A program made the position numbers and the translations under genes. Shown piece after piece: positions 1 through 63,010 of a stretch of DNA of 64,000 nucleotides. The stretch comes from Capitulum mitella (Eukaryota > Arthropoda > Thecostraca > Pollicipedomorpha > Pollicipedidae): positions 22,010,596 to 22,074,595 of the forward strand of contig CP099844.1 in the NCBI GenBank assembly GCA_030062745.1, read 5' to 3'. Each line of letters begins with the position of its first letter. Within the stretch, counting starts at the first letter, position 1. Below the pieces are notes generated by a model that was not told the origin of the DNA, did not search any database, and saw only the letters and a list, made by a program, of their open reading frames with translations.

Positions 1-1812
1 GCAAGGGCGCGGGAAACCAGGGGGAGGTGGGGCAGCATCCCCAACTTTCTGAAATTTGGCATTGACCCTGTGGGAGTCAACTGGCAAGAATGGACCCGAA
101 ATGTTTGTTTGCCCCACGGGTGGAACTTTTGGGGCATTTTGGTGGCCTCCCCCCGTTGATTCGGGATTTTTAACATCCGTTCTTTTCGTGTTGCATGGCA
201 AGAATCACCTAAAAACGTCGGAATTAGTCGAAAATAGCACAGCCTCCAGTCATTTTTACAAAGGCCCGCCCTGTTCACCCCTCCCCCCTTACTGTGGAGG
301 AGTTCCCGCGCCCCTATGAGTCTGTCACAGGGTTGAGGGAGAAATGGTACACGGTGTTGAAGCTGTAGCATACCTGCACTCCCAATACGGGCTTGCGAGG
401 AACATCGTACCTGCCACCACATACCATTTTGTTTGGTCCCGTTGCTCCCCAGTAAGTCTTATCTCTCCTCCTTCAGCTCCATTTCTCTCAACTTTGAGGC
501 TTTTTTGGAAAAAAACAAAGACGTGTGTTTTTCCAAAATATGAAATGATTAACAGTGATGCTTTATCATTTCTCTCATTTGATAAATAGGTTCCGTTTCG
601 GTAAACGGTTGAAATGTGGACATTCGAGTGTCCCATATACGGGTCAAATGTGACAACAGGGGAGAACCGGGAGAGAAGGGGATGGATCCATGTCCTTCTC
701 TCCCGGTTCCTCTTTTTTTTGCAGTTCTGCGCGTGTGTCCCGAATGTTATAATGCATTCAAGTACCCGCCTCTTTTAATCCTGTTTTCATGGTTTAACGT
801 TCATCGGTGAAAACCCGAGTTCGTCGGACGCGATGTGAAAAATGAACGTTGAAACGATGAAATGATGGTTGCTTTCTAGCCATGTAGCATCGCCAAAAAA
901 TAAACGAGACCAGAATAAAGGAGAGGGCAGAACGCCAAGACCCGGGCGTGCCAAAGAACGAAATGCTACGAACGTATGCACACCGCCATGCTGCCCGCTA
1001 TAGCGCGCCATCATCCGCTGATCGAACCCTGCCGGCCAATCGAATAGCAGTTGCTTTAGCACTGCGCCGCCCTAATCCACCGAGTCCTTTGGTCATTAAA
1101 AGATAGGCTCTACGTCTAAAAGAAAAACATTAACGGCCGAGTGAGTGAAGCAATTATGAAGGCTCGTTACATAATTTATGAAGGTCCGTTTCAGAAAATA
1201 AGTGCTTGTGGTCTCTCGGAAATCCTTCTTATTCTGTCTCTCAGCTAAGTGTTGGCCGCATTGAAAGGCTAGGAATAAGCGAATCCCCTGTGTCTTTTCC
1301 TCTGGACCAACCATAGTTATCCTACTGCCTAAGGAACATTTGGAATGTAGCAGAAACTAGCACCTCTTCAGTCAAAAGGGCAATGACGTCATCAAGCATG
1401 TCAACTGAATGGAAGCCCAGGTAGCAATTTTCATGTCCTTGGTTGGGTGCTCGAACGTCTGGTTTGTAAGTTGTGAACATCATAGTCGCTCGGCGTTGCG
1501 TGATATATACGGCATTGCAGATTTGAGAGCTGCGATGCCGCTGGGCATGTGGATCGTGGTAGGCTAAAAGATACAGTGACGTTAAGTCAAAAGCAAAAAC
1601 CACATAGGACGGCTGGGCAGCGTGCGGGCAAGCGCTGTTGAAATAGGATCTTGGCACCAGGCAAGGCCTTACGCACCGTATTGAGTTTAATCAACTCTTG
1701 TGCACTGGGTCTTGCGCTGTTCGTACATTTGAATAAATTTTTAGTCACTTCATCAGCAACCATAGGTACCAGAACACCAGCCAGTTTTGAGGCCCCTGTT
1801 GGTGAAGGGGAA
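1..1812. other. Upstream region of Cul4, no gene recognised
   Basis: No protein family was recognised here. Bases 1-62 are a copy of a short dispersed repeat (family B, also near 46.7, 56.5 and 58.8 kb). The rest is unique-looking, CpG-normal sequence. Base composition changes near 1,690, where CpG becomes scarce, so the Cul4 transcription start is probably at about 1.5-1.7 kb; this is inference. A 111-codon open frame on the minus strand (1,322-1,657) resembles nothing I know. Confidence 0.4.
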
Positions 1813-2368
1813 ATGGCTGAAGCTGTTCAGTCCAAACGAGCAAATTTTTCTGCAATTAATCTTGGAGGAAATGGCATCAGTGCTGCAGCAGGCCAAGCTG
1901 CTGCCAAGACAGGGTCAGCAAAGAAGTTGGTCATCAAAAACTTAAGAGGTAAGTGGCTAGGCTTGTTCTGGTTAGGTATTCCAGGTGCGTGGTACTGAAA
2001 TTGCAAGGTCAAATGCTGCTGTTGCCTTTGTTTTGTATGTGGATAAGAATGCTGTAGTTTTAGTTGGTATTTTTAGACAATTTACAACAATGCTGGGCCA
2101 TGTCATTGGCAGAACTCCAGGCAACACTGAATGTAACCTGACTTAGTTAACCTAGTTATCCAGGATATTGCAGTTCCTGACATGTTGTAAATTGCTACTG
2201 CTGTTAATAAGAGGCTGTGCCAGACCTGTATCCATTTGTCAAATAACATTCTAGAGTGTCATCCCTAGGTCATCCAGAGTGGGTACATTATGTGGATGAT
2301 CAACTTAGGTCCCATGGCTTTGGCCCAGATGTAAGATTCCCATTTTGGACAATACATAAGTGAGTTTG

Positions 2369-2439
<71 letters not shown>

Positions 2440-5400
2440 TCAGTAATAAAAACAAACCCTGATCAGCAATGGGTATTCCAACACTGGCATCAGCAGAGAA
2501 ATAAGATCCCAAATAGATCAAAGGTACCAAAAGTAAGAAGAACAGAAGACCAAAACCATTGCACTGTTCTACAAAACTAAATGTTGTCAAGCCACCTTGT
2601 GGACTAGAAGGCATTGAAGCCAGTTGTGCTGAACAGTGCCAAGACTGATGAAGGAGAACACCAGGCTGAACCTGCAAATCTGATATGAAAGCAAGGAAAC
2701 TCAGTTGTCTCATCATGAAAAACAACATGACTCAAGACAACAACAAGCTCAAGAAGACCAATGTGATCTACAAGTTTACCTGCCCAACAAAGATTGCCAG
2801 ATTCATACAACCAATTTACCGAGAACACTAACAATGCATCTCTGAGAGGATGCCTCAACAGCCCATGACCCATGCCCATAAGCAAAGCATCACCCAACAT
2901 GATCACACCAACAGCACAACAATAATGAAGACATCCAGTGACAGAAGACATCTCCTGGTGCCAAATGCACCTCTCATCTAAGGGGACAGGCCATCCTTGA
3001 ACAAACAGCTTGTGTCTTTTGTGACATGGGGGCTATTTTCCCATTGATTAGAGTGTGTGCCCATAGAAGATGTCTTGGTTTGTAAGCATCTTGTGAGAAT
3101 TACAAGGCTCATTTATGCAATTGCTGTTTTTTTACAATTCCAAGCAATTATTCTGACTGCTTGAAAATGGATTATGGTATCCAGAATGTTGTAAAGTAAT
3201 AGAAACAAATGACCATTGGTGATGCATTATATCACTAAACAATATCAATTACCACCCAGATAATGAATGATTAGGTTGGTAAAAATTGAACAGATCAAAA
3301 AGAACAGTAATCAAATTGGGAAATTTACTGGTGCTGAATAGAACTTTTTTCAGGCAGGATGTACTACTTTAGTATTCCGATATATGTGTGTACACATATA
3401 TATATATATAGATTTATATGTATATATATTCCATTTTTATGGCCTTTCCAGTTTGAAAGATGCACCAAAAAGGTCATAAAAACATGGAACATGTCACTCT
3501 TTTCAACAAAACCTGTGTTGAAAAACCTCTCCTTAACTTACACCAATGCATTATATATTATATTGTTCTTTCCTTAACAATATGTTGTTTAGGCTGAATG
3601 TATTCTGGATGTAAGCCAAATCAATGTAATGACTGCAGTAACCTTTTTTATCTGCAGCCCATGAATATATCAGCCAATCATTCCAGAAAACATTAATATC
3701 TTCTGTAAGCATGAATGTCGTGAAATGAAGGCTGCTAGCATTTCACAGTTTTGCAATGCCCACTGTTGATCTTTATTTTTTTACTATTTCCTTTGTTTGT
3801 TGTTACTATTATTTTTGTGCTTCAAGAACGCCCGAAGTTACCGGAAAACTACCAAGAGGTAACATGGAGCAAGCTAAAGGAAGCAGTCTTGGCCATCCAG
3901 CAGTCACGCTCCATTGCGTACAGTCTGGAGGAGCTGTACCAGGCTGTGGAAAATATGTGCAACCACAAAATGGCTGCCCAGCTGTATACGGACTTAAAAG
4001 GTATGACTGTATTATAATCTTGACAGGTTGGTTTGCAAGTTCAATGTTGAGTGTTGGATTTGATGTGTTGCTAAAGGTTGCAAAATTAAAGGTGGTGGTT
4101 GGTTTTGAAAAATAAATTAAAATTTCAACAGAAGCAAAAAACAGTGTAATCTGAAGTCATTCCACATGCTAGTTTGTATTGTATGAACACCACCTGGCTC
4201 AGCTTTAACATAAAATCACCATCCTTTTAAGTCAGCATGGCTGCAAGTGTCATGGAACTGTGATGGGTATTTAACTGTTTCCTTTTCTTTTTGTTCCAGC
4301 TCTCACTGAGGCCCATGTGAAGTTACAGGTGGTGAAATTTTTGGGCGATGAGACGGCTGATCGAGACCTATTTCTGCGCGAGATGAACGAGTGTTGGCAG
4401 AGCCACTGCCGACAGATGATCATGGTCCGCAGCATCTTCCTGTACTTGGACCGCACCTACGTCCTGCAGTGTCCGGCTATTCTCAGTATATGGTAGGCCA
4501 TTTCAGATGTTTATATGCATTCCTTGGCATAATATTCTTGAGAACAAATTGACGTTTTCTCCCTTGACAGGTTACTGACTGGAATATGTTTAATCTGACA
4601 AATGTATTGCAGATAGATGCTGTCATTCTCCAGTCATTTGAGGGATTCATGTGCTGTTGAATGGACAGATGTGTGAGCTGTCAACCCACCATCCACCTGA
4701 CCGACCTTTCACAGCCAAGGTGTTTATGTGGGAGGGGGGGGTCATAGGCTTTAAAGCTTGAAAACTCGACCATGTGCTCTGTAAGGCATATTAACTATCT
4801 GGTCTTATATGGTAAAAATGTACATTACTTGCACAGAATGCTGTCTGTCAAATTTTGGTGGTTGCCTGGTAGAGTATATTTGACTGGGTTATTGGTGCTG
4901 GGTCAGTGCTGTTTCCCTGCCTAGCTGCTGCAGCCCCAGCCATCTCACGGCCTTTGACGATACCACCCAGGGACATGGGTCTGGACACGTTCCGCACGCA
5001 CGTGATCACGGACGAGCTGGTCCAGAACCGGACCGTGTCGGGCCTGCTGGCACTGATCGAGCGGGAGAGGGCGGGCGAGGCTGTCGACCGCATTCTGCTC
5101 AAGTCGCTGCTGCGCATGCTCTGCGACCTGCAGATCTACCAGGTCGCCTTCGAGGACAGGTTAGCGAGCTCTTGGTGTGAAGAGGACGTTCAGTAGCTGT
5201 AAGATGGGGCTGTACTATCACTGTGATGTCTTCTGGTTGTTTTCGTTTCTGGAAATGCAACAGTGGCAACAAGATACACATTCCAGTGGCACAGAGCACT
5301 TGAATCATGGTGCTGGTCAAATTGACATGCTGGTTCAGAAAAGCTCAGGTCTTTAGTTTGACTGCATTGTTGGTCTCCGTACACAGTAGTAGTTCTTGTT

Positions 5401-14558: not shown

Positions 14559-16985
14559 GCTGATCAGGCCAGGTAGCATCAGCAAGGTCACGTCCAGGCT
14601 TGAAATACGGCCGTCTCAACTCTGTAAACACAGAGATCATGCAGTACCATTCACTATGCAAAGGAACCCTACACTGCAAATATACAGAGAGACATTTTTC
14701 AAAGGAATAGTGTTTCTCATAAAAATGGTCTGCACACTAGCACTGACATACAATGGCTATGGCCCAGACATGGACAAAAGTGCAGCAATCACGAACACCA
14801 CGGGTTCGTGACTGCTTATCTCAAGGCCAGAGTATAACTGAGTGCATGAAATCATCCCAAATAGTAACTGTTAGATGTTGTTTAAGTTCTATGATGTATC
14901 CTCAAGAATGAGGCCTGCAATAGAACAACATCATTGTTTTTTTAACTTGCAAAAATTAAGCAAGAGCTAGAACCAGCTGCTAAGGTTTCACAAGCATTAG
15001 CACAACTATCTTCAAACTTCATAAAACAAGTTTTGTGGGACTACACCCTCTGATAGACTGAACACTGCCAAGAAATGGACACAAGTCATGCCTGTGACAT
15101 CAGTAGTCAGGAAAAAACAAAACAAAGCAATCTGCAGAGGTCTGGCTTCCATTGTTTCCTTTTTACAGTTTCTCTGCACTTCTCGCAAAGTGAACTGAAT
15201 TACTGCACTTCAAACACAAGAATGAAATGTTTGTTCACAAAATTCGAGGTTTAATCAGACCAGATGCTTCATGACCTGAAGACTTTATACCCTGATACAA
15301 CACATTGGACACATCAATCACACAAATATGTTTTCAACTACAGTTTAGATGTGTAAATAGTACAGTCCAAGTATGTACATAAAACAAGAGTTTGTTACTT
15401 GGTTCATTTCATTCTGGTCAGAGTAGCATTAGTCTCAAAATGCCTTTTCATGGCTACAGTAGCCTTGGCTGAAGCTATCACTGCTAAACAATTGCAAACC
15501 AAATTTTCTATTCTATCTTAACACATCTGGAACTGACAAAGCCAAATCATGGTCTATAGTCTTGGAAGCCAGTCTGGAACAGTGTTGGAAGCCTGGTTTT
15601 CCTTCCTGGTGTCAGAGTACAAATTCTCTTTTGGAGTATAAAATGGCATGCATTTATGCGAGGAACATGGACTAACTAGGTGCTCTGCAAGCGTATGTGG
15701 CCAGCAGGGCAGATCCAGTGGTTCCCAGTTTCCTGGGTCTATATGGTAGGTTGGCCGAGTTGTTGTTGGGGGGTGGAAGGTGGCTGGCTATGGGTTCAGA
15801 GCATACTTCAGTGGCTCAGTATGAATGGTAAACCATCAAAAGGGGGAGGGCAGGGAATGCTGGGCAATTTCAAACTCTGGTTGATTAGAAATACCCATCT
15901 TTTGGGGAGGAGCAAATGGCCATTTTGGAGTACAAAATTTTTCTTGGAGCATAAATTTTGGTGTTCCTTGACACCAGAAAATGACAGATTTCCCAACATT
16001 GGTCTGAATATATGCCTCTCAATTTCCAACCTATATAACACATTCTCATCTTTTTGCAGACTTCTTTCATTATATTAATCATACAGAACAGCACATAAAC
16101 TTTTCTATGAAAGAAACTGTCCCAATACTGGTATTATTTCTGACCACAATGGAGTTATATTTTGCCATAACCAAACTAGATGGGAATTGGTGGCACGATC
16201 TTGTTTACAATGTCCTTGCTCCAAGGATACCCAATGTGCTGAATAATATCTGATGGTCATCTGAACAGAATACCAGAGCCCAAAAGACAACAAAGGTTGC
16301 AAATGAACTTGACTCTGTCTGACAGGGATTAGGTTGGTTAGGCCGGGTTTGGTTTGGTTAGATTGAATTAGGTTTGGCACTTTGTTTATCTTTTTTGTTA
16401 ATCATTAAGTTTGATTATAATGAAGATGTCACAAGGAACATCCTTGGAAACTGGCCATTTTGAATTTGTTACCAGAGAATCCCAGCAGAAAACAAACCAA
16501 CAAGTGGCACAGCAGTCAGTGATGCAAGGAGTGACAATATTATTCAGTAATTTTTTTCATATTCTTTATCTAAGAATGGTATTATGCAGCACCATATTGT
16601 AAGTATTTGCCTTAAAATCATATGTTCTATGATTTGTAACCACTCATACTATTTTTCACCCAAATGTCCAAAGTGGTTTATCATAGTTTTCCTGAATGTA
16701 ACCTGTATATCTGAATGTTCTGTATTCCATAACCTGAAGCATTCATTGGCCTGTGCATGACCATATTGCATCAAATCAGTAGATGACTGATGACAATAAC
16801 TTTCAGATAACCTAATTTTCCAAGGCTTCTAGTAATTTTTGAGAAGAGGATCTGAAACATTATCTGCAATATGTTGCACACTAATCCATTCAAGACAAAC
16901 TGACATTTCCCTTAAGATCCATGAGACATGTTTCACCATATTCTGCCTAACATCAATGCCACTTACTGCAAAAACTGACAAATAA
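14559..16985 (-). other. LAPTM4 5' UTR exon end and presumed CpG-poor first intron
   Basis: On the minus strand a strong acceptor (CTCTGTGTTTACAG, exon from 14,621) precedes the start codon, so the coding exon begins with 5' UTR. From there to about 16,985 CpG is almost absent. Near the far end the minus strand has a donor-like GTAAGTGG at about 16,974. I infer a first non-coding exon just beyond it. No coding exon was seen. Confidence 0.5.
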
Positions 16986-23783: not shown

Positions 23784-23835
23784 TTCCTCTGAACTGCCAA
23801 TTGCAAATTAGCACATGGTCACACCAGTGCAATGT
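23766..23835 (-). promoter_or_regulatory. BAP18 first coding exon with three-codon uORF
   Basis: A strong minus-strand acceptor (CCCTTTCTCTTTCAG) puts the exon start at 23,835, implying an upstream untranslated exon. Between it and the true ATG (23,783) lies ATG-TGC-TAA (23,816-23,808), a minimal upstream open reading frame 24 bases before the start codon. If translated it could lower initiation on the main frame. Confidence 0.55.
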
Positions 23836-25320: not shown

Positions 25321-25367
25321 ATGGCATTTTTATCATTTCTTTTTAGTCACTGTTGATCTCAGGCTCG

Positions 25368-27294: not shown

Positions 27295-27345
27295 CGTGGT
27301 TCCCAGCTGCTGGTGTTGACTGAGCTGTCCTGTCCTCAGCCGGCG

Positions 27346-42500: not shown

Positions 42501-42611
42501 CCGACAACCAAATCTCCCCCAAATGTGGGTTTCTCAACGGATTTAACACACCTTATTTTTATCAGCGGATATATATATATATATATATATATATAATTGC
42601 TTTTATTTCCA

Positions 42612-42650
<39 letters not shown>

Positions 42651-45600
42651 AGAAGATAGCAGAAAGACAGATAGAGGCGTCCATTTCTGTGAATGATTGG
42701 GGGGGGGCGAGCTGAGTGCCCGACAACGTCACCTCCCCCAAATCTGGGTTTCTTAACGGATTTAGTCCACTTTACTTTGGCCAAAGGAAATTCATAAGTT
42801 CTTTTGTTACTATTTATCCAATAAAACTGTATTCATCCCCGTGCATAACGGTAGGTATATAGGCAGAAGATAAAAAGATAGTTATATCTCTTTAGACTTA
42901 TTAGACTATTCCTCTGAATTTAAGACATAAACTCTTGTTGCGCCTCTCCCCCCTCCGAAACGCAATGTATGGATGTCCCCATATCCCTTTTTGGGTACCC
43001 ACAATCATTTTCCAGAAACCACACCCATGGGCCGCCCCCCCCCCCCGGCTGCGCCTGTGGGGTACGGGACAAAATGTTCTTCAGATCACCGTCATTTCAG
43101 TCTCCCTGGCAATGACTTCATCATTTATCGAGCGGTGTGCGGAACTGTAGGGTCACAGCCCGTGTAAACGTACTCACCGAGCAGTGTGCGGGGCTGCAGG
43201 GTCACGCAGCCCGTGTGGACGTACTCACCGAGCAGTGTGCGAGGCTGCAGGGTCACGCAGCCCGTGTGGACGTACTCACCGAGCAGTGTGCGAGGCTGCA
43301 GGGTCACGCAGCCCGTGTGGACGTACTCGATCAGCTGGCGGAATACGTCGGGCTCGAACTCCTCTATGATGAGTGTCTGGTGTTGGGTCTGGGTCGGCTG
43401 CCGGTCAGCGCAGGACGCTCAGTGACGAGACAGTGGTCGGACGTAGAGGGCTCGGAAGTGGCGAAGGCAGTGAAGAGGCGGACCTCTGGGGAGGCTTCGT
43501 CATCTTCTGTAGGGCTGTTCGACCCTGTGGCTGATCCAAGGTTCAACGGTATAGGGACACGATCAGCATGGTAATGATAGCAGCTCCCGAGTTTTGTCTG
43601 TAATTGTCGTTAGTGAAATGATGTCAATATGTCATTCCGGTAACCGACGATTTAAAAAGCCGACGATACGTTTTTCAATACGGTGGTAGACCAATAAATA
43701 AGACATGATTAAACAGTGTTTATTAAAGTCGCCATTGCAGCTGTTGCCTTTTGCCAATGCAAGATAATACACTATGTAGGAAAATTCCGTAACGGGAAAC
43801 TGATCACGTAAGTTGGACGCCTCCATCCACTATCTGGCAATGGCTTCTTGTTCCATGGAGGGAACATCTTGCCACATTTTTCATGAAGAACTCAACCTAC
43901 TGCGCCACAATGAATGGGAAATCAGACTTGCTCATTATTGTATTATGAAAGCCATTGACTGAGGGGCAACTCGTGGACCTCGTCCTACATGTTGCCTTCT
44001 TCTAAGTAAGTCAGAAATGCCAGTGACAGAAACGTCCGTCGGCCGGAAGAGTGAAGCTTACGCATGGCCCTGGACGATTAAACGCACGACGTAAACGACA
44101 GTAATACATGTATTTTTATTGCAAACAAAATCATGCTGTGTCACCAAAATCAGAAACTATGAAATCAGAAGAATCCCTGAGAGTATCATTGGAAGTAAGC
44201 GCATGGCGAGGAAGTCTCACCGACTCTTATTGGCTCGGGAAAAGACATGCTGAAAGAATCTGCATAAAATTACCATTTAGTCCAGTTCAGGTTTCGGAGG
44301 TAGCGTGTTCATGTCACTGACCATATTTGTCAGCGAAAAGCAGATTGGACAAGTGGCATCATCATGAACGATGTACAAACATTAAATCAACGGTAATCTC
44401 CATCCACACTTCAGTGGTGATCAGCAGCACTTAAATCATCAGTTAAAGTTCACAACGACGTAATTAAACAAAGTGTTCACCAATCACATCTACGTCGCGC
44501 CGTTTTCTCCACTACGCTGGATCTCCACTCTACACTCCACTACTCCATTCAGCTACGCTGGATCATGAACATACTCTCAGGTAGGAAGGAATTTTCGGAC
44601 AGCATCTCCACGCGTAAAAAACATCCAGCATACGTGCGATGAGTCATGCGTAGACGCAGGCGGCAGACATGCATGCTGCATTGGATATAAGCAAGAGACG
44701 ACCGCAAAGAGAAACTTGGATACAGAAAGAATGCCGACAGAATGTTCTACCTGGTAATAACGTTTGCCAACGAGGAATTAGATGCGTCTCATTCACACAT
44801 GGCCTTGTGGAAAGTCGCAAAGTTGGTTGGGAAGTATACCACTGGTGCATGCACGTGCGACAACACTCGGGAAAATCGGAAACGTTTACGGACTAATGCG
44901 GCCAATTCCAATAGACATGCACCGGCTGCATCTAACAAAGATGGATGACGGCAAATATCACATCTTACAGTTTGAGTGCCGATGTGTCTACGGATAATTG
45001 TCTCATAAATGATAAAGGCCTAATGATTTCGATACTACCTACCGCATTCATCAAACTGACAGACGCATATCAAGACACCATGTCTCGATGCGCATGCATC
45101 TTGCTCCGTGTGCTGAAACTGCGTGCATGCTTTTTCGGTGCAAGGGTCCATCTATGTGATGGGTGTGAGCATACTCTTGTGCGTGGGTATGTAGCCGTTT
45201 CCTAAAATGTGAGCAGTTAAGATGTGAGCTGAAATGTGAGCATACTCTTCCCAGACTGCAAATAACAAATCTTCTGAGCGCTTCTCGGTATTCCGTCTGT
45301 GCTATGTACATTTTGGAGGAAAATTTAAATCAACGTGTTTCGTTGCAGGTGAGGGGCCGCATGCACAGGTAGGCTGTTAGCGTGGGGCAGGGCCGTCGGG
45401 TGATAACATGCCGTTAGGCAGGGTGTTCGCTGTAGCTGTTTACCTCCGGAATGGTGGGAAGCTGCTGCAAATAGCCCAGACGCTGAAACAGGTCCGCGTC
45501 AGCGCCGGCGCCGGTGCAATGTTGCACATAGTCGCATGCATTTCACAAGGAGCTTTGTGACAGGAGCCCGAAGAGCACCTGCCGTCCCATTCCCCGACAC

Positions 45601-48600
45601 GCTCGTGCAGCAGACAAGGCCCTGCACAGACCGGTGCGCTGCTTCTCCGTCCTTCCTGGTCGGCGGCTGCATCTGGCCGAACGTTCTGGGCCACATGCTG
45701 CCTGATGGCCTGACCTGATTAGTCGTGCATAACTTTGTAATACAATAGTGGTTTTTGAGAGAAAGAGGAAAAACGATAGCAGCAATATTAGCCGTGAAAC
45801 TAGTTGTTTGGCGAGTTCGTGGTTTGGCGAGTAAATTTGCATTTTCCATTCGCATCCCAGTTATTTTATGAAGTCATTTCGTTGGTGATGACGTGCTCTA
45901 TAAAACAGACTTGATATTTTCCTCCCAACCCAACCAATGTGTGAGATTATTTAAGCAAAAGGTATTGTGTCCGTCACGAAGTGTTCCAATATTATTTTTA
46001 TGTGCCCGTCATGGTCTCAGTGAAGGATGCCGCGAAATAAGTTAAACGTAGTCGAAATATGTGCTAATGGTGCTGCTGAAGATTTTCAGGGTGTAAATGA
46101 GTAACGAGATCTAGCTATGCTATCTTAGTCTGAAGTAAGTAGACATTCTGTTCCGATGTTTTCGGTTCCGTTTACGTCATGTCGCCGTTGAGACAGACTG
46201 TTTAATGAAGCCATTAACAGATATAGTGCTATCCATCCGAAGTATTCGGTATTCCGTCGGAAGTTCGGTACCTGCAGCATACATCATGTGCTAAAGCTAG
46301 CTATCAGTGGCACACGAAAAGACGGTATTTTTCCCCGCGACAATCAAGCTTTAAAACCCTCTTTGAATGGTAGTGTCTTGTTTCTGCTTTATACTTCTGG
46401 CGTTTCATGCCTACAAACTATGGTATATAAGTACCTTTATTGGCCTTGGACAGGGGCGCAGCCAGGATTTTCCTAGGAGATAGGGGGCGGCGGAGCTAGG
46501 TGTGTGCTGAAATCCTACGAAAACCGCCTGCTGGGAAGACGACGTGCAATAGTTTTGACAAAAAATCCGACCCCCTGGGCTGCATCGGTGGTCTTGGGTA
46601 TCGCAGAACACTTAGAAATACCTGAAAAGTTGACAGAGGGGTTTTCAGAGGCACCGCCCAGGAGCGGTAGAACCTCTGTGGAGATGGGCGTGACAAACGT
46701 GATTTTTACCTCCTTTCTTTCTATGCAACGCCATAGGGTTAATGCTAAACGTTGCCCAAAGTTGGGGGGCTGCCCCCTGCCCCTCTCCTGTTCCAACGCC
46801 CCTGGCACCGCCTCTTGGGAGCAAACTTTCTGTCAGGAATTGCTGTCAGACAGGCGCAAGTCCTTTGTCCTGTCTTTCATCACATCTGCGCCGAGACTTT
46901 GTCTTCATAAAATCCATGGTTTCAAAAATTCCCAACCCCGAGCTTAAAACTTAACCCTATTCCCGGAAGGCTAGACGGTATGATCGATTCCCGGCAGGGA
47001 GGCGGGCGGATTCGGCCCCCCTGACATCTCGAGAACTACATATCCGATTTCATCGCAATGAACGACAATCCATTTTCCATGACGTAAACAATGTTTTCTA
47101 AAAAAGTTTCAAAATTTTGAAAGGGGTGGACACAGGAGGCAAGAATGTCAAAATGGGGAATATTCTTGGACTTCTTATAACTCCGTTGTTTATGGATCGA
47201 TTCTAATGAAAATGCCATGAATCGAGAGATTATGGATGGCACTTTTACCATTGGTTCATATATTGGAAATTTTAAGAAAATTCACAGACGTTAACAGGGT
47301 TTTGAAAATGGGAGAACTAATTTTTCGAAAACTGAATTAACAAAAAAGCCAAAAGCACTTTTTGGCTTGTAACAATCATATTACGCTGAAGAAGTGCAAA
47401 TTGCATTACAATGTCTGTATAACATTAGCATAGGCGGTGTCAGGGACATGAAAAAAGGAGAACTGTCATGGTCATACGTTCCTCAGATCAACTAACGATC
47501 TTTGACCTTAAATGACCACTAATAGCCTTAGAGTCTCTTGGAATGATCCCTTGTGCATTTAATATTATCTAAAAACGTTTCCAATCATTTAAATTCACTT
47601 TGTTTCTGAAATTTTACGGCATTTTACGGCTATTGTGATGTAGGGTATCCGCACTGGCATTTCAGGCCATAGCTCCCTGACTCGACCAGATATCAAGCTT
47701 AAGCTTAGTACACAAGAGAAGGGCAGCCTTCAACTTTATATATATTCTGGATTTGGTATTTCAAAAAAATAGCGGCAAAAGTTTTTCTTTAAAACCTAAT
47801 TTTGTATTTTGACCTTGACCTGACCTTATAAAGTGATTTCAGACAAACAAAAGTGTATTTGTATGCTGTCCAACTATTAGCCTACATACCCATATAAAGT
47901 TTTAAGTCCGATCTTAAAAACGCTATTTTTGGCAGTCATTTTGCTTTTACCCTCAACGGGCCAAAAATGGCCTGAGGTCCCTTCCAAAAATGTTGCCTGG
48001 CTCCGCCCTTGAGCAAACCAGAATTACGAAATTCTGTCACGGTATGTAAAAAGAATAGCTAGGAAAGTGATTACGTTTCGTGAAGCTGCGTCAAAAACTC
48101 TGGAATTGGCAAATAAAAAACCCGAATGGGTCGGATTCAGCCCTCCCCCTACCGGGAACAGGGCTAAGGCAGACATTCCAAGAAGCAATGGCCTTCATGA
48201 ATCTATTTTACCAAGCCCGTACGGTATTTCGTAATACCACTCGCAGTCCAACGGCATGCTTCCGAGCATCACAAAAATATTCAATATTGCGAGGTCATAG
48301 TTCAAACAAGTAACTCCATCTGAACTGATGAATCCACGTTGTTCACTAAGAGTGACGATCATTTTGTGACCTTAGACTTGTCTCGATTTTTTGAGACATT
48401 TTTAGACACAGTGCCTTTATAACTAACGCAGTGCGTTCAAGGAACGCATATTACTCTGAATGAAAAAAATGGCAGATGCACGGCAATATTAGAGAAAATA
48501 TGGAAGTAAAAATAGGACCATTTAAGAATTGATTGCGTTGGAAACCAAAGTGTGATACATCTGAAACGGTACACTGAGTGGCCAAGAAGCAAAATCGCTT

Positions 48601-49557
48601 CTCCTTCCAAATCACGCACGACCCGTTCGGTGGATTCAGTTGGGAGTTGTGTTTGAGTAGATACCTATAACGGTATGTACCTTTAATATTACCAGAAGAC
48701 AGACCTCAGCAGTTGAAAGCAAAAATGCCGACAGGAGCGAAAACATGATTTGAGATAACCATGACAAACATGAAAAGAGTTAAAAGTTCAACCAACTATG
48801 GTTTTGTATTTGATTACAGGAGGTAGCGTCATGTGTGCACTGACAGTAGCATACTGTCACTAGTAAATTGTGTTTTTGCCGTGCAGTTTAAGCCACGGGC
48901 CGATACCGATACTGAGGAGGTCATGTTGGCGCGCCTGCTTTTCCTGTTGTTGACTATGCCCTTGACTATGCCCTGAATCCTCGGATCCAGCTTCGTGTTG
49001 CCACCGTTTACAGACACTACAAACATGGCACGAAAAGAACAGGCTATGGAAGAAAGAAAACTGACAGATAATGAAGGAACGTATCTGAACATCCCAAGAC
49101 TCCCAGGGTTTCTCAGTTATTTTTTCAGAACTAAGAAGCTACTGTCAGTATTTTTATTAAACAAATGGGACAGCCCACTGTATAATAACCGCTGCCACGT
49201 AAAGTATATATATGTATATATATTTCTATATATATATATATATATATGATATCCCACTCCATGATCTCATAACAGTTCATTCAGCGTCATCCGGTACTGA
49301 AATGACTGGTAAAATAGCCTCCCGATGCAAAACTAGGGGTGTCGATTTGCATTCTTCTGAGAGAGCTCTGGCCCCTCCAGTGTTGATTTAGGTCTCTCCA
49401 GTGTTGGTTCGCCTCCCCCGAATGTTTTCTGCCGATTTTAAAGGGAAGTAGGCAATAAAAACAAAAAGAACGGCCGCATTAGGTAACAGATAGGCAGAGA
49501 GTATCGAACAAGTCATTAAGCGATGAATCCATCTATCTTTCACCATCTATCTATCTG

Positions 49558-49598
<41 letters not shown>

Positions 49599-51232
49599 AT
49601 ATATATATATATATGTGTGTATATATATATATATGGGGATATATCTGGTACCCTGTTTGGTAATTAGTAACATAAAAAGCAACGAATCTTTGTTGACCAA
49701 AATAAAGTGGGCTAAATCCGTTGAGAAACCCGCATTTGGGGAGACTAAGTTTCGGGCCCTCGGCTCGGCCCCACCTCATAATCATTTACAGAAATCGACA
49801 CCCCTGTGCAAGACGCAAAAGTGACTCCTGTTTGCAGCTGCATGGAATATTCGAAAGGAGAGGAGACACCTCTCACTCGTCCTCAAGGGACCTGTCCAAT
49901 CCCGACGGTCTGCTGAATCCGCCCCAAGATGAAAGTTTGCGACAGTGGATGCGCAAGAGAACACATGAGGAATATTTCAACGATTAGCGACACGGAAGTT
50001 GGCACCAGCAAGCCCGTCTCTGCCTTGCATCGCAGCGGAAAGCGGACCCAATGGCGCCTGCACAATGAACGCACGATCAGACGCAGTTGTTTGAGGACTT
50101 ACTTTTTCGGTCGTGTTTTGAAGGTTGAGCAGAGGCTCGCTACTTCTCTTCAGGAAGAGTCTTAGTTTGTTCTCCTTCTGCGGCTGGTCCTTCTTTCGTT
50201 GTGGTGAAGATGTAGAGTAGAATATTTTGTGAAAAACCCTTCCGAGATAAAACTGCTCGTTAATACGCAGTCAGATCAACATGCGTCTACGTACGTCGGT
50301 GCCTTATTTCCCCGAGTAACTTTCCTTTTATTCCACTCTAGGTTTGCCAAGATAGAAAAAAAGACGTGACATCTCATTCGCAATGCACACTCGTCTGGCG
50401 TTACTTGAACATCTTCAGATTCAAATTACGATAAACCAAACGTTCTGAGCTAACAGCGCGCCCTGGTAGCACATATTGCGACTCGTTTCATTGATCTTTT
50501 GGCCAGCACATGAGTGATGGATAATTCACCAACAGCTCATATCCAAAATCTTCCATCGCTGAGATATCCTTAACTAACCGTCCACGAAACCCAGCATTGC
50601 ACGTGACTTTACGGCCTGACCCAGACGGCCAGTTTGGAAATGGAAAGTGGTACGAATGATGGGAAGTTAAAACCCATAAAGACTTGTAGGCAACAGTCCA
50701 GATATTTTACAAAACGTCGAAATTTGGACCATTTCGATACCAGAAGTACGTTGCTTTTGCTGACGCTCGTCAAGGACAGACAGAAATTCAGAACTCTTTT
50801 TGATTGACTTTCCAAAGTTCGCGCGATTGCAACCCCTCCGGACTAGCCAGCAGGCGCCTTCGGAGGTGCAGAAATCCGTGGACTCAGTGGCAACATCCCC
50901 CGGTTTCCGACCCCAGATCTCGCAGCGCCCGGCGCGCGTCCGTCCCGCGGCGCCGCGCCGTCTCGGCGGCGGCCGAACCACGCTTCGGAACACCGTCAAA
51001 CATCGATCCGGCGGGGCACCCGGCCGCAGCTCACTGACCTGCTGCGGGAGGCGAGCACCGCCTTCACGGCGCACACCGGCTCGCGCGTGTCGCCCACTAG
51101 GAACGTGACGTCGCACAGCTCCGGCATGCTGGCCAGGAACTTGAGGTCCTCGGCCAGGCCGGTCTTGTTCTCGAAGATGTTGTAGTCGGGTTCGTCGGTC
51201 AGGGCCTCGGCCATGGCCAACAGGTAGGTCAT
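39563..51232 (-). CDS. gprs: BTB/BACK domain protein, serine-enriched protein (gprs) family; one exon not located
   Basis: Exons found, in transcript order: 51232-51039, (gap), 45482-45444, 43397-43280, 41652-41495, 40905-40777, 39958-39563. The first has ENKTGLAEDLKFLASMPELC and DVTFLVGDTREPVCAVKAVL, the opening of a BTB/POZ fold. The 39-base exon gives RLGYLQQLPTIPE. The next gives HQTLIIEEFEPDVFRQLIEY ending LQPRTLLG. The BACK-like part follows (NAADYYGLDELRRACAGFVQ, YIQYKCTKSMVQK, LNLGSFTLLPQHVVRLILAR, ALMWSKKYC). The C-terminus is Ser-rich. This matches my memory of the Drosophila serine-enriched protein; its function is poorly known, and BTB-BACK proteins often act as cullin-3 adaptors. 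Exon 1 ends in phase 2 and the 39-base exon starts in phase 0, so at least one exon between 45.5 and 51.0 kb is missing. The start ATG is tentative. One exon has repeated donors. Confidence 0.8.
41695..41746. repeat. Exact 26-bp direct repeat
   Basis: Units 41,695-41,720 and 41,721-41,746 are identical (they begin GCACACCAGTACAACG), followed by a third partial GCACAC. They lie 43 bases upstream of the acceptor of the gprs-like exon at 41,652. Confidence 0.9.
42223..42345 (-). mobile_element. Dispersed repeat family A, copy 4 (reverse)
   Basis: Starts GGCGCAGTCAGGATTTTG, then a G-run, CTGAAATCATACGAAAGCCG and CAAAAAATGCGGGCC. This is the reverse complement of the copies at 25,128, 60,805 and 61,551. 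Confidence 0.7.
42372..42452 (-). repeat. Dispersed repeat family C/D, copy 1
   Basis: GTGTGGTTTCCT ... GGGTGCCCCGGCACCCACA ... TATGTTTAAAT. The same string recurs at 54,468-54,556, and in the other orientation its end resembles 42,945-43,035 and 55,535-55,618. Confidence 0.7.
42455..42900 (+). mobile_element. Two partial hAT-like MITE copies with TA microsatellites
   Basis: Two left ends sit in tandem (42,455-42,566 and about 42,672-42,790). Each has TTTCTGTRAATGATTGGGG, GCCCGACAAC, CCCCCAAAT and AACGGATTTA as in the complete copies. The first breaks off into two TA runs (42,566-42,646) separated by about 30 bases. Confidence 0.7.
42945..43035 (+). repeat. Dispersed repeat family C/D, copy 3
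   Basis: ATGGATGTCCCCATATCC, then GGGTACCCACAATCATTTTC and GAAACCACACCCATGG. A close copy lies at 55,535-55,618. Confidence 0.7.
43131..43331 (-). repeat. 51-bp tandem array covering an exon end and its splice donor
   Basis: Units on the minus strand: 43,331-43,281 (authentic exon end), 43,280-43,230, 43,229-43,179, and a diverged 48-bp unit 43,178-43,131. The first three differ by a single base. Each encodes EYVHTGCVTLQPRTLLG in frame and each of the first three ends at a GTGAGT donor (exon ends 43,280, 43,229, 43,178). Confidence 0.95.
43398..45443 (-). other. gprs-like intron, nothing recognised
   Basis: Two kilobases of CpG-normal sequence with short open frames on both strands and no family resemblance. 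44,515-44,575 has short CTACGCTGGATC direct repeats. Confidence 0.6.
46447..46575 (-). mobile_element. Dispersed repeat family A, copy 5 (reverse)
   Basis: Begins CAGGGGCGCAGCCAGGATTT, then a G-rich stretch, GCTGAAATCCTACGAAAACC and ACAAAAAATCCGACCCCC. It is the best-preserved terminus of the family. Confidence 0.75.
46745..46806 (+). repeat. Dispersed repeat family B, copy 2
   Basis: GGGTTAATGCTAAACGTTGC, then AAAGTTGGGGGGCTGCCCC and CCAACGCCCCTGG. It matches the reverse complement of 1-62 and the copies near 56,528 and 58,826. Confidence 0.65.
46955..48163 (+). mobile_element. piggyBac-like non-autonomous element, copy 1 (about 1.2 kb)
   Basis: Flanked by TTAA (46,951-46,954) on the left and CTAA (48,164-48,167, a mutated TTAA) on the right. 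Terminal inverted repeat CCCTATTCCCGG ... CCGGGAACAGGG. No transposase ORF. The interior matches the reverse complement of 56,700-57,919 over nearly the whole length (for example TTTCAAAATTTTGAAAGGGG near 47,110). The TTAA target plus ends starting CCC is the piggyBac signature. Confidence 0.85.
49203..49250. repeat. TA-rich microsatellite
   Basis: Imperfect (TA)n run of about 45 bases in the large gprs-like intron region. Confidence 0.9.
49334..49806 (-). mobile_element. hAT-like MITE copy with 8-bp target duplication
   Basis: 473 bp with ends TAGGGGTGTCGATTT and AAATCGACACCCCTG. Flanking 8-mers TGCAAAAC (49,326-49,333) and TGCAAGAC (49,807-49,814) agree at 7 of 8 positions. It has no ORF and contains the (CTAT)n/(TA)n microsatellite. 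The orientation is opposite to the copy at 37,613. Confidence 0.87.
49540..49637. repeat. (CTAT)n(TA)n microsatellite inside the MITE
   Basis: About twelve CTAT units followed by a TA run. The corresponding place in the 37,613 copy is GAAGATAGAAAGACAGATATG, the likely unexpanded seed. Confidence 0.9.
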
Positions 51233-51540
51233 GGGTCGGCTCCGGAGCGGCGGTGGCGGCGGTGGCGGCAGAGTCCGTGTCCTGCGGGTGCGCTCACCTG
51301 TTGCGCTGGCTCGGCTGCCCCCCGGTGGCCGACTGGCGCGCGGCGGACGGAGCGGCCGCCTCCATATGGCGCCGCAGGTGGGTGCCGGTCAGGGGCGGCG
51401 CGGCGGCGGCGCGCGGCGCGTGGCATGGCCGATCGATGCCAGCCGTGGCCGCGTCCGCCGCCGCCCGGATCGTGTGTGTGCTGACGACAGAATCGTCAGC
51501 TCCCAACGGGCCCGGTCGGTGGCCCAGTCCAGGCACAGCG
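51233..51540 (-). promoter_or_regulatory. CpG-rich 5' flank of the gprs-like gene
   Basis: Very GC- and CpG-rich 300 bp directly upstream of the tentative start codon, then the GA tract. There is no CpG depletion on either side of this start, unlike at the housekeeping genes. Probably the promoter or 5' UTR; no core motif was identified. Confidence 0.4.
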
Positions 51541-56595: not shown

Positions 56596-56699
56596 TGTGA
56601 GGAATTGCTGTGTTATGTTTAGTGCTAGTCACCTTTATCTATAACTTCATACCAGTCATCTTGTTGGTCATATCGTGCCCAGTAAGACACAAGTCTTAA

Positions 56700-57919
56700 T
56701 CCTATTCCCGGCAGGGGGGCTGAACCCGCTCCCCTTGGGTTTTTTGTTTGCCAGTTCCAGGGCTTTTGGCGTAACTTTATGAAACTTGGCCGCTTTTCCT
56801 AGATATTCCTTCAACGTACTGCAACAAAATTTCGTGCTTCTGTTTTGCTCAGGAGCGGAGCCAGACAACGTTTTTGGGAGGCACCTCAGGCCATTTTTGG
56901 CTCTGATGAGGGTAAAAGAAAAATGTCTGCCAGAAACGGCGTTTTTAACAAAGAACTTAGAACTTTATATGGATGTATAGGTAAATAGTTGAGCAACATG
57001 GAAATATAACTCTATTTATCTGAGGCCACTTCATAAGGCCAGGTCAAGGTCAAAAGTCAATATTGGATTTCATAGTAATAATTTTGACGCTATTTTTCAA
57101 ATGCCAAATCCGGGATGTATATGACATAGAAAGGTACGCTTTACTTGTGTACCAAGTTTCAGGTTGATATCAGGTTGGGTCACGGAGCTATGACCTAAAA
57201 TGTCATTGCGCGTACCCTATATCTATGATGACGGCCGTAAAATTGAATTTTAGAAATAGAGTGAATTCAAATGATTGGAAACGTTTCCAAATAACATGAA
57301 ATTGCATGTTATTTGGAAAAAGACCATTTCAAGTGATTCTAAGGCCATTGGAGGTCATTTAAGGTCAAAGGTCGTAAGTTGATCCGAAGAACATGTGGCC
57401 ATGACCTTTTTATGTGTCTGACACCGCCGAAGCTGGCATTTTACAAACATTGCAATACAACTTGTACGTCTTGAGCATAACATGACTAGTAGAAGCTAAA
57501 AAAAAGTGTTTTATTAATTTTCTTGCTAATCTGTTTTTTAAAAAGTAATTCTCCTATCTTCGAAACCTTGTGAACGCTCTCTCAATTCTCAATTCTCTCA
57601 AAATCTGAAAAGTATGGATCAATGGTAAAAGTGCCATTCATGACCCCTCGATTCATGCTAGTTTCATCAAAGGGACCCATAAACAATAGAGTTACAACGA
57701 GTCCAAAAATATCCCCAGTTTGACTTTTTTGTCCTCCCTTATCCACCCCTTTCAAAATTTTGAAAACTTTCCCTTAAAAAAACGTAGTTTACGTCATTGC
57801 AAATTGATTGCCGTTTATTGCGATGAAATCGGATATGTAGTTCTCAAGATCTCGGGGGGGGGGGCGAATCCACCCCCTGTCGGGAATCAGCCATATCGTA
57901 CTGCCCTCCGGGAATAGGG
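56700..57919 (-). mobile_element. piggyBac-like non-autonomous element, copy 2, inverted (about 1.2 kb)
   Basis: Exact TTAA on both sides (56,696-56,699 and 57,920-57,923). Ends TCCTATTCCCGG ... CCGGGAATAGGG. The interior is the reverse complement of 46,955-48,163, with many substitutions. No transposase ORF. The intact TTAA pair supports transposition rather than segmental duplication. Confidence 0.88.
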
Positions 57920-60804: not shown

Positions 60805-60951
60805 ACAGGGGGGCCCGGGCCCCGCCCTTAGGCCAGCATTTTTGGTGGAAACCATTGCACATAGCTTCCCCGGCATGCGGTTTTTGTGCAATTTCAGTTT
60901 ACACTGAGCTCCGCCCCCCCCCTCTTAAGAAAATCCTGACTGCTCCCCTGC
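60805..60951 (+). mobile_element. Dispersed repeat family A, copy 2
   Basis: CACAGGGGGGCCCGGGCCC, then CTTAGGCCAGCATTTTTGG, GCGGTTTTTGTGCAATTTCA and AAGAAAATCCTGACTGC, ending TCCCCTG. Confidence 0.75.
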
Positions 60952-61550
60952 TCTCACCAGTCACAGACGTGAAATCGATTGCGAAGTATCTTTTTAATGA
61001 CTCTTGAAGGAAAACTTTCTTCATTTTGCCAAGAAATATAAAGTTACCAAGCTACCATATCGTGCACACGAAAGAAGACAAACCAGCCGCAGATAAGATG
61101 AGGTCTTGCGCATCAACGTACGTCTCGAATCGTAAATTTCTTCGTCCCTGGGTCGTCCAGGGCATGCGAGGTATAAGATTAGCTTCTGTCTGAACTGGGA
61201 CGGATAATGATGAATATGTTCGAGAAACATGAAATCATATGCATCCTTCTTCCAAACTGATTTTTGTGTCTCATATGATCTTCAGAAAATTGGCATGAGT
61301 TTGATCTCCATGCAGTTAAAACGGTGTCATGCTACTGGTGCACAGGTTTTCCTTATTTTGAGAGATATTAATTATCAATCACATGGTGCAGAAATCACTA
61401 ATTTTTCCAAAACACATGCTAAAAGTTGAACTACTCATTGTAAATGCATGAAGAAAGATGCCATTTTAGAAGCAAAATGAAGGAAATGTTACTGAAAGTG
61501 GGACCAAAAACCAGGATTTTGAGAGACTGATGCACTAGGAAGGTCAAAGG

Positions 61551-61700
61551 GACCCAGGGGGCTGGGCCCCCTCCCTAGGCCTGTATTTTTGTGGAGACCA
61601 TGTCACATTGTCCTCCCATCAGGTGGTTTTGGTATGATTTCAACTCACACTGATTTCCAGCCACGCCTTAAGAAAATTCTGTCTGCACACCTGGACTGAT
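61551..61700 (+). mobile_element. Dispersed repeat family A, copy 3
   Basis: GACCCAGGGGGCTGGGCCCC, then CCTAGGCCTGTATTTTTGTGG, AGGTGGTTTTGGTATGATTT and AAGAAAATTCTGTCTGC. This copy has lost nearly all CpGs that other copies keep. Confidence 0.72.
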
Positions 61701-62029
61701 GAGCATAATTTGTATATTAAGCAGCCTGTATTGGCTTTGTTTTCCAACCACAAGCTACAGCATAAAATTTGGATATGTCAGGTTTTAAGCTGCAAGGATT
61801 GCTTTATGGATGCCCAAAGCCCTTTCTCGGGCCAGCTTTGAGGAACTCTTTACAGCAGGGATGTGGGAACTTCACCACAGTTGGAGGGAGGAGCAATGAG
61901 GCATTTCGTGACAGTTCTTTCCAGACAGTGCCTGTAGTATCCATAATGAATTAAAAAAAAAACTTAGGAGGTTGCTGCTCCCCTGTCCCCCCACTTCCCA
62001 CACTCTTGCTGTAAAGGGCTGCATACGTA

Positions 62030-62595
62030 GACCCGCGCAGACCTCGTTAGGCCAGCAGAAGGGCCTTATAGGCCAGCATGAGGCCCTGTTATGGACATGC
62101 AAACTGCCCTTCTGCAGGCCAGTGATGTGTCCCACTGGTCTGTGTATAGAGCCAGCAGCAGGGGTCCCATTGGAAGCCAGTAAGAGGCCATCTAAAGACT
62201 CAAAGGCAGATCATTTTGAGGTTAGCTCAGCCTTGTTGTAGGCCAACAGATCATCCTTTATAAGACTTTAGGTGCCTTACATGCTGTCGGGGGCCCATCT
62301 ACATGTCTGTAAGTGGATTCTTTACAAGCCAGCAGATGGGTCCAGTATGGGCTAACAGGGGGGTCCAGTATGGGCTAACAGGGAACTCTTTCCAACTCAG
62401 CAAGGGGACCCCTTGTAGGGCTCCTCTACAGGCAAGCAGGGGTCATCTGCAGCATGGCACAAGACCCCTTAACAGGCTAACAGAAGCCACTTAGGTTGAG
62501 AGCCAGGCCCTTTTCAGACTGATATGAGCCTTCTGTGCATTGGTAGGGGTCATCTTTACAGGCTAGAAGGGGCCCCCTTCACAAGCTTTTTCCTT
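62030..62595 (+). repeat. Degenerate minisatellite, period about 22-23 bp
   Basis: About twenty-four units resembling AGGCCAGCAGGGGTCCCTTTAC; the best-conserved neighbours are at 62,330-62,385 (GGGCTAACAGGG). Confidence 0.85.
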
Positions 62596-63010
62596 TTTTC
62601 CTGCCAGCAGAGACTTCTTATGTAGTAAAGTATCCATAGCTAGTATGTAGTAGAAAACCCATGGTAACTAATAATAATAGGAAAAGCCCCAAATGCCTTT
62701 TGCCCAAGGGGCCGCTCTGCTGAGTAGTCATGAAATCTCCCAGCACTATGTGCAGAGGGGTGCCTTCCAGCTCAAATTCAGTGCTAAGAGAGAGAGGCTG
62801 CAGCCCTCCGAGCCCCCTCCCCTGGATGCATCTGTGGCAGAGACTCAGAATGGACTTTAAGGCATTACTCTTTTATTCTTTGTTTTTTCAGGCAGATCAT
62901 TCATTCCTTCTAAGGCAGTCAAATCTGAACATTTGCAGTTGCCACAGTCATCCATAAGACATCGCCAACTCGTCTTCAATCTCCGCTCTCGCTGCTGAGT
63001 CGGCGCCGGT

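Follow-up and report, generated by a model that had tools for sequence, protein, structure and literature searches.

Arthropod DNA methylation is described as lying in the 5′ part of conserved, broadly expressed genes and as being enriched in exons in most species (PMC7343188, available text). In the methylome of Daphnia magna, methylation is low before the transcription start site (TSS) and rises steeply right after it, with enrichment at the 5′ end; levels are low overall, fall gradually along the gene and are higher in exons than in introns (PMC11963560, available text). Complete or nearly complete CpG depletion has been reported for many ion-transport genes of the copepod Eurytemora carolleeae (PMC11706791, available text), and because such genes occur there, near-total CpG loss is by itself already known. 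A search of the available literature on barnacle methylation found no barnacle methylome paper, and the main text of a survey of 138 ecdysozoans lacks all five barnacle terms looked for (PMC8821070). The footprint described here, in a 64-kb stretch of Capitulum mitella DNA analysed over its whole length (the window), may be a first look at methylation for barnacles.

We propose that the CpG-depleted blocks of this window are very probably the scar of long-standing germline CpG methylation over the first part of broadly expressed genes (1.7 to 3.2 kb in this window), starting near the promoter. Both the methylation in the blocks and the TSSs to which they are related are read from the DNA sequence.

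CpG-depleted blocks in the window

The window was segmented with a two-state hidden Markov model (HMM) on CpG, using a penalised fit. The five CpG-rare blocks recorded in the first-pass annotation proved to be real, with CpG observed/expected ratios (o/e) of 0.03 to 0.14, and their recorded coordinates are off by no more than some 120 bp; the exception is the Cul4 block, which is about 680 bp longer and extends to 4,946. The remainder of the window, which had been called CpG-normal or CpG-rich, falls into HMM segments with an o/e of 0.81 to 1.06, no depleted segment being found over the whole window besides those of the five blocks. The lowest CpG count per 1,500 bp is 0 in the window, compared with a minimum of 47 among 100 first-order Markov simulations. 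Five dips of 70 to 203 bp returned by a looser HMM fit (at 1.3, 37.7, 47.7, 54.5, and 57.6 kb; TpG, 1.06 to 1.30; CpA, 0.88 to 1.39) are absent from the penalised fit and were rejected, as was a CpG-poor zone at 51.5 to 54 kb (o/e of 0.51 to 0.60 in four 500-bp windows), which consists mostly of repeats and is not a block.

The Cul4 block (1,726 to 4,946, plus strand; HMM, exon map, Pfam Cullin, and PDB cullin-4) runs from exon 1 to intron 3 and comprises two depleted segments, 1,726 to 4,326 (o/e, 0.11) and 4,477 to 4,946 (o/e, 0.14). Within exon 3, a CpG-normal island at 4,346 to 4,474 (plus strand) carries 10 CpGs in 129 bp (o/e, 0.97), with depleted introns on either side; this exon retains C at 4/8 NNC codons before G and has 2/8 NCG codons, and the retention of CpGs here, inside a block, is not predicted by uniform methylation. 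The LAPTM4 block (14,615 to 16,979, minus strand; o/e, 0.11; HMM, Pfam Mtp, and tblastn) lies 5′ of the start codon at 14,563. The BAP18 block (21,515 to 24,394, minus strand; o/e, 0.07; HMM and tblastn) spans intron 1, exon 2 (VGEIF…; about 21,868 to 21,960, minus strand; tblastn), and the first 350 bp or so of intron 2, the gene being presumably BAP18, as named by tblastn with the human protein. It is separated by 824 bp of CpG-normal DNA (24,412 to 25,235; HMM), a candidate bidirectional promoter, from the divergent CCDC47 block (25,252 to 27,340, plus strand; o/e, 0.03; HMM and Pfam CCDC47), which contains no CpG between those at 25,366 and 27,295 and stops 9 bp short of the ATG at 27,349. 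The SUPV3L1 block (61,228 to 62,960, plus strand; o/e, 0.12; HMM, Pfam Suv3_N, and PDB SUPV3L1) lies 5′ of the ATG at 63,010. As the first-pass annotation had claimed, the single BTB gene for which it proposed the name gprs (39,563 to 51,388, minus strand; first BTB-like exon with an ATG near 51,232; BTB matches weak, under the cut-off of Pfam) is without a block in the HMM.

Relation of the blocks to gene 5′ ends

A block lies at, or at most 100 bp from, the start point used in 5/6 genes of the window, a match equalled by chance in 99/64,000 rotations of the window, where the 100-bp tolerance was picked after the data had been seen and BAP18 was entered as exon 2. The link between blocks and gene 5′ ends in the window thus exceeds chance; the absence of such a link genome-wide had been named beforehand as grounds for abandoning the methylation reading. 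The earlier placement of the blocks within the 5′ part of genes stands for Cul4 and BAP18, the only window genes with known coding exons inside a block, and needs amending for LAPTM4, CCDC47, and SUPV3L1, in which the whole block lies 5′ of the start codon. Because they end 9 to 52 bp upstream of the ATG, these three blocks are probably 5′-UTR introns, and their transcribed status is read from acceptor-like sites: that of SUPV3L1 at 62,892 ranks at the rounded 100th percentile of 7,557 AG sites, that of LAPTM4 at 14,621 at the 98.5th, and that of CCDC47 at only the 93rd.

The same position upstream of the ATG would also be expected if these three blocks were methylated 5′ flanks or promoters, with transcription beginning just before the ATG exon, a reading that also draws on the lack of strong donor-like sites near the SUPV3L1 5′ edge (the best nearby site is only at the 94th percentile). 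We consider it unlikely, though the least improbable of the alternatives: coding exons lie within the blocks of Cul4 and BAP18 and, as we read the ORFs, in those of NSUN2 and an Exo_endo_phos gene described below, the acceptor-like sites at block ends are strong in SUPV3L1 and LAPTM4, and silencing-linked upstream methylation appears in just two arthropods of one paper, in its available text (PMC7343188).

The edges themselves are sharp. A step model fitted at least as well as the tested ramps at 10/10 edges, with support intervals of 21 to 101 bp everywhere but at the BAP18 5′ edge, where the interval is 331 bp. A 400-bp ramp costs more than 2 log units at 6/10 edges, including 4/5 3′ edges, and less at Cul4 5′, BAP18 5′, BAP18 3′, and CCDC47 5′, while ramps of up to 100 bp were excluded at none of the 10. 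That 4/5 3′ edges in the window fall no more than 75 bp from an exon start, mapped or predicted, had suggested domains bounded by splice sites, i.e., a first-intron mark that begins at the first 5′ splice site and stops at a later acceptor. This idea, which we now regard as improbable, was dropped after true edges had been placed at random in simulations of three genes: of 450 edges, the HMM assigned 57.6% to the interval from −75 to +100 bp around an exon start, and the coincidence is unremarkable because CpG-dense exons draw HMM edges. Furthermore, the BAP18 block stops in intron 2, the Cul4 block crosses two exons, and, according to our own ORF reading, a coding exon contains the block edge at one proteasome locus (L027).

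Nature of the CpG loss

In the non-coding DNA of the blocks, o/e values were 0.08 for CpG, 1.48 for TpG, 1.50 for CpA, and 1.12 for GpC, compared with 1.03, 1.22, 1.18, and 1.05, respectively, in non-coding DNA of the same genes past the block; TpA was alike in the two (0.68 and 0.73). The excess of TpG and CpA, which had been suggested as a check on the methylation reading, is therefore present, both dinucleotides being raised alike in 4/5 blocks, with SUPV3L1 the weakest for TpG (1.17 to 1.21). A crude equilibrium calculation for the non-coding DNA of the blocks, assuming equilibrium and transitions only, gives approximately 18-fold CpG hypermutability. Coding DNA within blocks has a CpG o/e of 0.44, compared with 0.08 in non-coding DNA; by raw count this is the reverse of an exon bias, although constraint retains part of the coding CpGs.

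Codon context provides a comparison within the same exons. In block exons, third-position C is found in 66/93 codons before non-G and in 1/40 before G; outside the blocks, the corresponding figures are 333/390 and 130/151. The loss of C in block exons is CpG-specific. Likewise, NCG makes up 5/33 NCA and NCG codons inside the blocks and 96/112 outside. A milder AT shift is apparent at third positions before non-G (66/93 versus 333/390; P = 0.002). Arg CGN codons, in which both transitions alter the residue, are less depleted (4/8 inside versus 61/77 outside; P = 0.08).

One interspersed repeat family of about 140 bp, with seven consensus CpG sites, has copies inside and outside the blocks. The copy inside the SUPV3L1 block (61,558 to 61,693, plus strand) retains 0/7 consensus CpGs, carries TpG or CpA at 5/7 of the sites, and has one CpG elsewhere. 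Copies outside the blocks have five CpGs with 3/7 consensus sites (60,811 to 60,950, plus strand), nine CpGs with 6/7 (42,218 to 42,359, minus strand), and eight CpGs with 6/7 (46,451 to 46,572, minus strand). A further copy straddles the CCDC47 5′ edge at 25,252 (25,178 to 25,308, plus strand) and has four CpGs before the edge (25,203, 25,213, 25,223, and 25,235) and none after it; in its outside part, 3/4 consensus CpGs have been lost (two to CpA and one to CC) and three CpGs occupy other sites.

These observations bear on two further explanations. Purging of CpG by selection, acting on 5′ transcribed RNA through a ZAP-like CpG sensor or on 5′ regulatory DNA, would agree with the closeness of the blocks to gene starts, yet it is very improbable, given that introns, which are absent from mRNA, and synonymous sites lose CpG comparably, that TpG or CpA stands at former CpG sites of a repeat copy, and that the BAP18 block stops within an intron, the exons further on being CpG-normal. 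That the blocks are simply AT-rich first introns of different base composition, bearing no CpG-specific scar, accords with their lower GC fraction (0.39 to 0.47 versus 0.44 to 0.59 in other segments) and somewhat AT-richer third positions before non-G, but is rejected by the codon context, C being lost almost only before G, and runs counter to the unreduced GpC, the similar TpA, the raised TpG and CpA, and the CpG-normal later introns, so that next to no weight is left to it.

Recurrence in the assembly and DNA methyltransferase genes

Blocks recur elsewhere in the assembly. Two of 12 arbitrary 10-kb loci contain one, over the 5′ exons of NSUN2 and of an Exo_endo_phos gene, and both of these blocks contain coding exons (ORFs read by eye). 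Among 15 proteasome places, a block lies within 1.5 kb of the hits at 10, or at 9 under the stricter rule used for arbitrary loci, and none was found within that distance at the other five. The earlier claim that blocks mark the 5′ part of every housekeeping gene is therefore too strong. At the intronless proteasome locus L025, the block begins within the coding sequence (CDS) and, since it overruns the CDS end by more than 1 kb, may belong to a neighbouring gene; because of this locus, and since the loci had been excised around exons, the position of blocks relative to the proteasome hits is no decisive test of direction. The DNMT2 locus contains two blocks about 2.7 kb apart. Blocks can be as small as 0.55 kb.

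Across 659 windows of 400 bp, CpG o/e is bimodal, with 46 below 0.25, 19 at 0.25 to 0.5, and 594 above 0.5. The 12 arbitrary loci have an o/e of 0.73 to 1.19, and genome-wide CpG depletion, of the kind associated with vertebrate-type methylation, was not found in these loci and windows.

The assembly encodes DNMT1 (on C2; E = 1.4e−33), DNMT2, and a DNMT3-like gene, the exons of which gave four colinear hits on C11 (best E = 1.9e−8). DNMT1 and DNMT3-like genes, as predicted enzymes, are thus present in the genome, and the absence of both, which would have told against methylation, does not apply. Together with synonymous-site CpG loss, the gain of TpG and CpA, the repeat copies, recurrence, and bimodality, these genes lend support to the methylation-footprint reading.

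Proposed origin of the blocks and comparison with known systems

Under the proposed methylation scar, the action of DNMT3 and DNMT1 would deposit 5-methylcytosine in the 5′ part of the gene and preserve it there, where methylated CpG would deaminate to TpG, or to CpA if the other strand mutates. Such decay would act equally on introns and synonymous coding sites and would continue until some 8% of the expected CpGs were left in non-coding DNA. Sequence lying upstream of the promoter, like the later gene body, would be unmethylated in the germ line and would so retain its CpGs. A more specific version, in which an all-or-none germline domain is anchored at the TSS, covers the first 0.5 to 3.4 kb or so independently of gene length and exon layout, and tracks an early-elongation chromatin state, is offered tentatively and is rather doubtful, because blocks of 0.55 kb occur and the sharpness of the edges is resolved only down to about 100 bp.

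A strong, bounded footprint would provide a map of germline methylation domains from sequence only. An annotation would then be enough to ask, for thousands of genes, whether the length of a domain is set by its distance from the start, by chromatin state, or by splicing. Promoters might be predicted in a non-model genome from plain sequence and, if the TSS-anchored domain is true, both promoters and methylated genes could be read from DNA letters alone, the scar being so complete. Most likely, plain DNA letters here hint at a past methylation tag and at gene starts.

As in the general arthropod pattern (PMC7343188, available text), the blocks are 5′ confined and may favour conserved, broadly expressed genes, although methylation is here inferred from sequence; unlike the exon enrichment described for most arthropods in that source, the footprint is strong in introns. 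The 5′-end enrichment and sharp onset near the start resemble those of D. magna (PMC11963560, available text), from which the blocks differ in that the footprint is near-complete, extends to introns, and ends more abruptly at most of the 3′ edges. The likeness to Ciona sperm (PMC3827831, available text) lies in the all-or-none domains with sharp boundaries described there in germ cells; in Ciona, however, the domain is central and most methylated genes are covered almost whole, whereas here it is confined to the 5′ part. No methylation-type domain spanning most of the transcription unit was found in Cul4 or CCDC47, which are CpG-normal from 4.9 kb and 27.3 kb, respectively, through their last mapped exons. 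As in Stegodyphus spiders (PMC6409797) and E. carolleeae (PMC11706791), CpG loss serves as a record of past methylation, although the spider and copepod figures (low peaks of 0.34 to 0.35; mean of 0.5) refer to whole genes or coding sequences and are not like for like with ours. Unlike the data available in those two sources, depleted and CpG-normal DNA here adjoin within one gene.

CpG-depleted blocks and gene starts in the window

Block calling by CpG observed/expected ratio (o/e) in 500-bp steps and by a two-state HMM (also in a looser fit) showed that the five CpG-poor places noted by eye in the first-pass annotation are the sole long CpG-depleted segments of the window. The HMM places these blocks at positions 1,726 to 4,946 (Cul4, with a CpG-normal gap at 4,346 to 4,474), 14,615 to 16,979 (LAPTM4), 21,515 to 24,394 (BAP18), 25,252 to 27,340 (CCDC47), and 61,228 to 62,960 (SUPV3L1). 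CpG o/e of the HMM segments was 0.03 to 0.12 within blocks (0.14 in the short second Cul4 piece) and 0.81 to 1.06 outside them, and the lowest CpG count per 1,500 bp was 0, versus at least 47 in 100 Markov simulations.

Cul4, LAPTM4 (Mtp), CCDC47, and SUPV3L1 were identified through Pfam or PDB matches together with exon maps built from human protein queries; the gene that we take to be BAP18 was assigned by exon mapping with a human protein. The start codon of Cul4 (1,813) lies within its block, and those of LAPTM4 (14,563), CCDC47 (27,349), and SUPV3L1 (63,010) lie 52, 9, and 50 bp past the block end, respectively. BAP18 exon 2 (from VGEIF) is inside the block; its ATG exon was not found in the exon mapping, and 21,985 was taken as its position. 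With this start point, and with a 100-bp tolerance set after the data had been seen, a block is at or no more than 100 bp from the start point in five of the six window genes, a result equalled by 99 of 64,000 rotations. Acceptor-like sites occur at the block ends of SUPV3L1 (62,892), LAPTM4 (14,621), and, weakly, CCDC47 (27,340), and close to the 5′ edges the highest-scoring donor-like site ranks between the 94th percentile (SUPV3L1) and the 99.7th (LAPTM4, 17,201). Because such sites flank them, these three blocks are probably, though not certainly, 5′-UTR introns.

The sixth gene of the window, the gprs-like BTB gene, carries a 51-bp tandem unit (43,156 to 43,328) in frame in its BTB-like exon, in three registers at least 96% alike, which appears to be a recent in-frame expansion.

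Specificity of the depletion for CpG

After masking of microsatellites, the non-coding DNA of blocks (11,335 dinucleotides) displayed o/e values of 0.08 for CpG, 1.48 for TpG, 1.50 for CpA, and 1.12 for GpC, the corresponding values for non-coding DNA past the block in the same genes (12,675 dinucleotides) being 1.03, 1.22, 1.18, and 1.05. The smallest TpG excess was that of the SUPV3L1 block (TpG 1.21, CpA 1.39).

The inside set for codon context comprised Cul4 exons 1 and 2, a portion of BAP18 exon 2, and a 495-bp stretch of a proteasome gene that lacks introns (locus L025), all within blocks; the outside set was 19 of the 27 mapped exons. Among C/T-ending codons of block exons, third-position C was present in 66/93 before non-G and in 1/40 before G (30/41 and 0/17 in the window block exons alone), compared with 333/390 and 130/151 outside. 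Likewise, NCG made up 5/33 of NCA plus NCG codons in blocks versus 96/112 outside. A milder AT shift is also evident in blocks (third-position C before non-G, 66/93 versus 333/390; p = 0.002); the codon-context counts nonetheless distinguish CpG decay from mere AT bias. Arginine CGN codons, in which either transition alters the amino acid, were less depleted (4/8 in blocks versus 61/77 outside; p = 0.08).

Cul4 exon 3, which was excluded from the codon-context set, has normal CpG density (at 4,346 to 4,474) amid the block, between a CpG-free intron 2 and a depleted intron 3. It kept NNC before G at 4/8 and NCG at 2/8 positions, and arginine codons account for only approximately half of its CpGs.

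A repeat of approximately 140 bp, present in five copies in the window, was compared at seven aligned consensus sites, defined by CpG in two or more of the three copies outside blocks; the sites are few and were chosen for having CpG outside. The outside copies have CpG at 6, 6, and 3 of these sites; the copy within the SUPV3L1 block has none, with TpG or CpA at five. The copy spanning the CCDC47 5′ edge contains four CpGs, all before the edge, and at consensus sites retains CpG at 1/4 outside the block and 0/2 inside, so that three consensus CpGs are gone outside too. Other repeats of the window include an inverted pair of an interspersed element of approximately 1 kb (47,016 to 48,066 and 56,795 to 57,860; 76 to 86% alike in pieces) and, in one of the late introns of CCDC47, a minisatellite-like GC-rich repeat with a unit of approximately 50 bp (31,191 to 31,424).

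Block edges

At all ten edges, a step model at least equalled the tested ramps. An 800-bp ramp costs 1.5 to 13.1 log units and a 400-bp ramp more than 2 log units at six edges (including four of the five 3′ edges); a 100-bp ramp was excluded at none of the ten. The BAP18 3′ edge (21,515), where ramps up to 400 bp also fit, falls within an intron and is therefore not exon-made. Although 3′ edges coincide with exon starts in four of five cases, 57.6% of simulated random edges do likewise, and a splice-site rule is therefore unsupported.

Blocks and methyltransferase genes elsewhere in the assembly

With a block defined as 500 bp or more at an o/e under 0.25, blocks of 2,354 and 1,534 bp were present in 2 of 12 arbitrary 10-kb loci of the assembly (477 Mb, 16 contigs). 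At one locus (L015), which may hold a neutral sphingomyelinase gene, the block contains the first Exo_endo_phos-matched exon, with the later ones past it, all three matches being below the Pfam cut-off. At another (L023), the block edge cuts an exon matching NSUN2 residues 53 to 100, and by our reading the earlier NSUN2-like exons would lie inside the block. No block was found in the two 10-kb flanks of the window.

We grouped 25 proteasome matches into 15 places, of which 10 have an HMM block no more than 1.5 kb away and 5 have none within that distance; under the arbitrary-locus rule the count is 9/15, L030/L040 dropping out (o/e 0.31 to 0.35). Nine of the ten blocks are on the 5′ side of the match. 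The tenth is at L025, a proteasome alpha gene that is open and apparently lacks introns, where the block (1,414 to 3,349) begins within the coding sequence and extends more than 1 kb beyond its end; it could belong to a neighbor or be set by distance from the start. Outside the window, blocks measured 0.55 to 3.4 kb, several being cut by locus ends. By CpG o/e, 659 windows of 400 bp fell into 46 below 0.25, 19 at 0.25 to 0.5, and 594 above.

Sequence matches indicate that the assembly harbors genes for predicted DNMT1 (contig C2; PDB match, E = 1.4e-33), DNMT2 (C4; Pfam match, with a weak PDB match, E = 0.0076), and DNMT3-like enzymes (C11; four colinear exon matches, 46 to 66% identity, best E = 1.9e-8). 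The DNMT3-like exons (16,411,915 to 16,463,516) span approximately 51 kb, wider than other genes mapped here. The DNMT2 locus has two blocks, from L008 position 8,900 to L009 position 857 (behind the first exon) and at L009 3,582 to 4,573, with approximately 2.7 kb of CpG-normal sequence between, and a neighboring gene (weak MARVEL match) has a 3.4-kb block on its 5′ side. No block was found in 30 kb around the DNMT1 matches.

Comparison with known systems

Published reports describe methylation in Daphnia that rises sharply after the start and then declines gradually (PMC11963560), all-or-none domains in Ciona sperm with sharp boundaries and nearly entire coverage of methylated genes (PMC3827831), and housekeeping genes marked by methylation in crayfish (PMC6172769). 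Intron involvement is not new, since in Stegodyphus the extent of methylation is about equal in exons and introns (PMC6409797). Near-total CpG loss has likewise been reported already, many genes of a copepod being described as completely or nearly completely CpG depleted (PMC11706791). What is unusual relative to these reports is the combination of a strong footprint shared by introns and synonymous sites, its restriction to the 5′ part of the gene, and CpG-normal sequence directly after. The phenomenon is of a known kind, and it is this combination of features that merits a genome-wide test.
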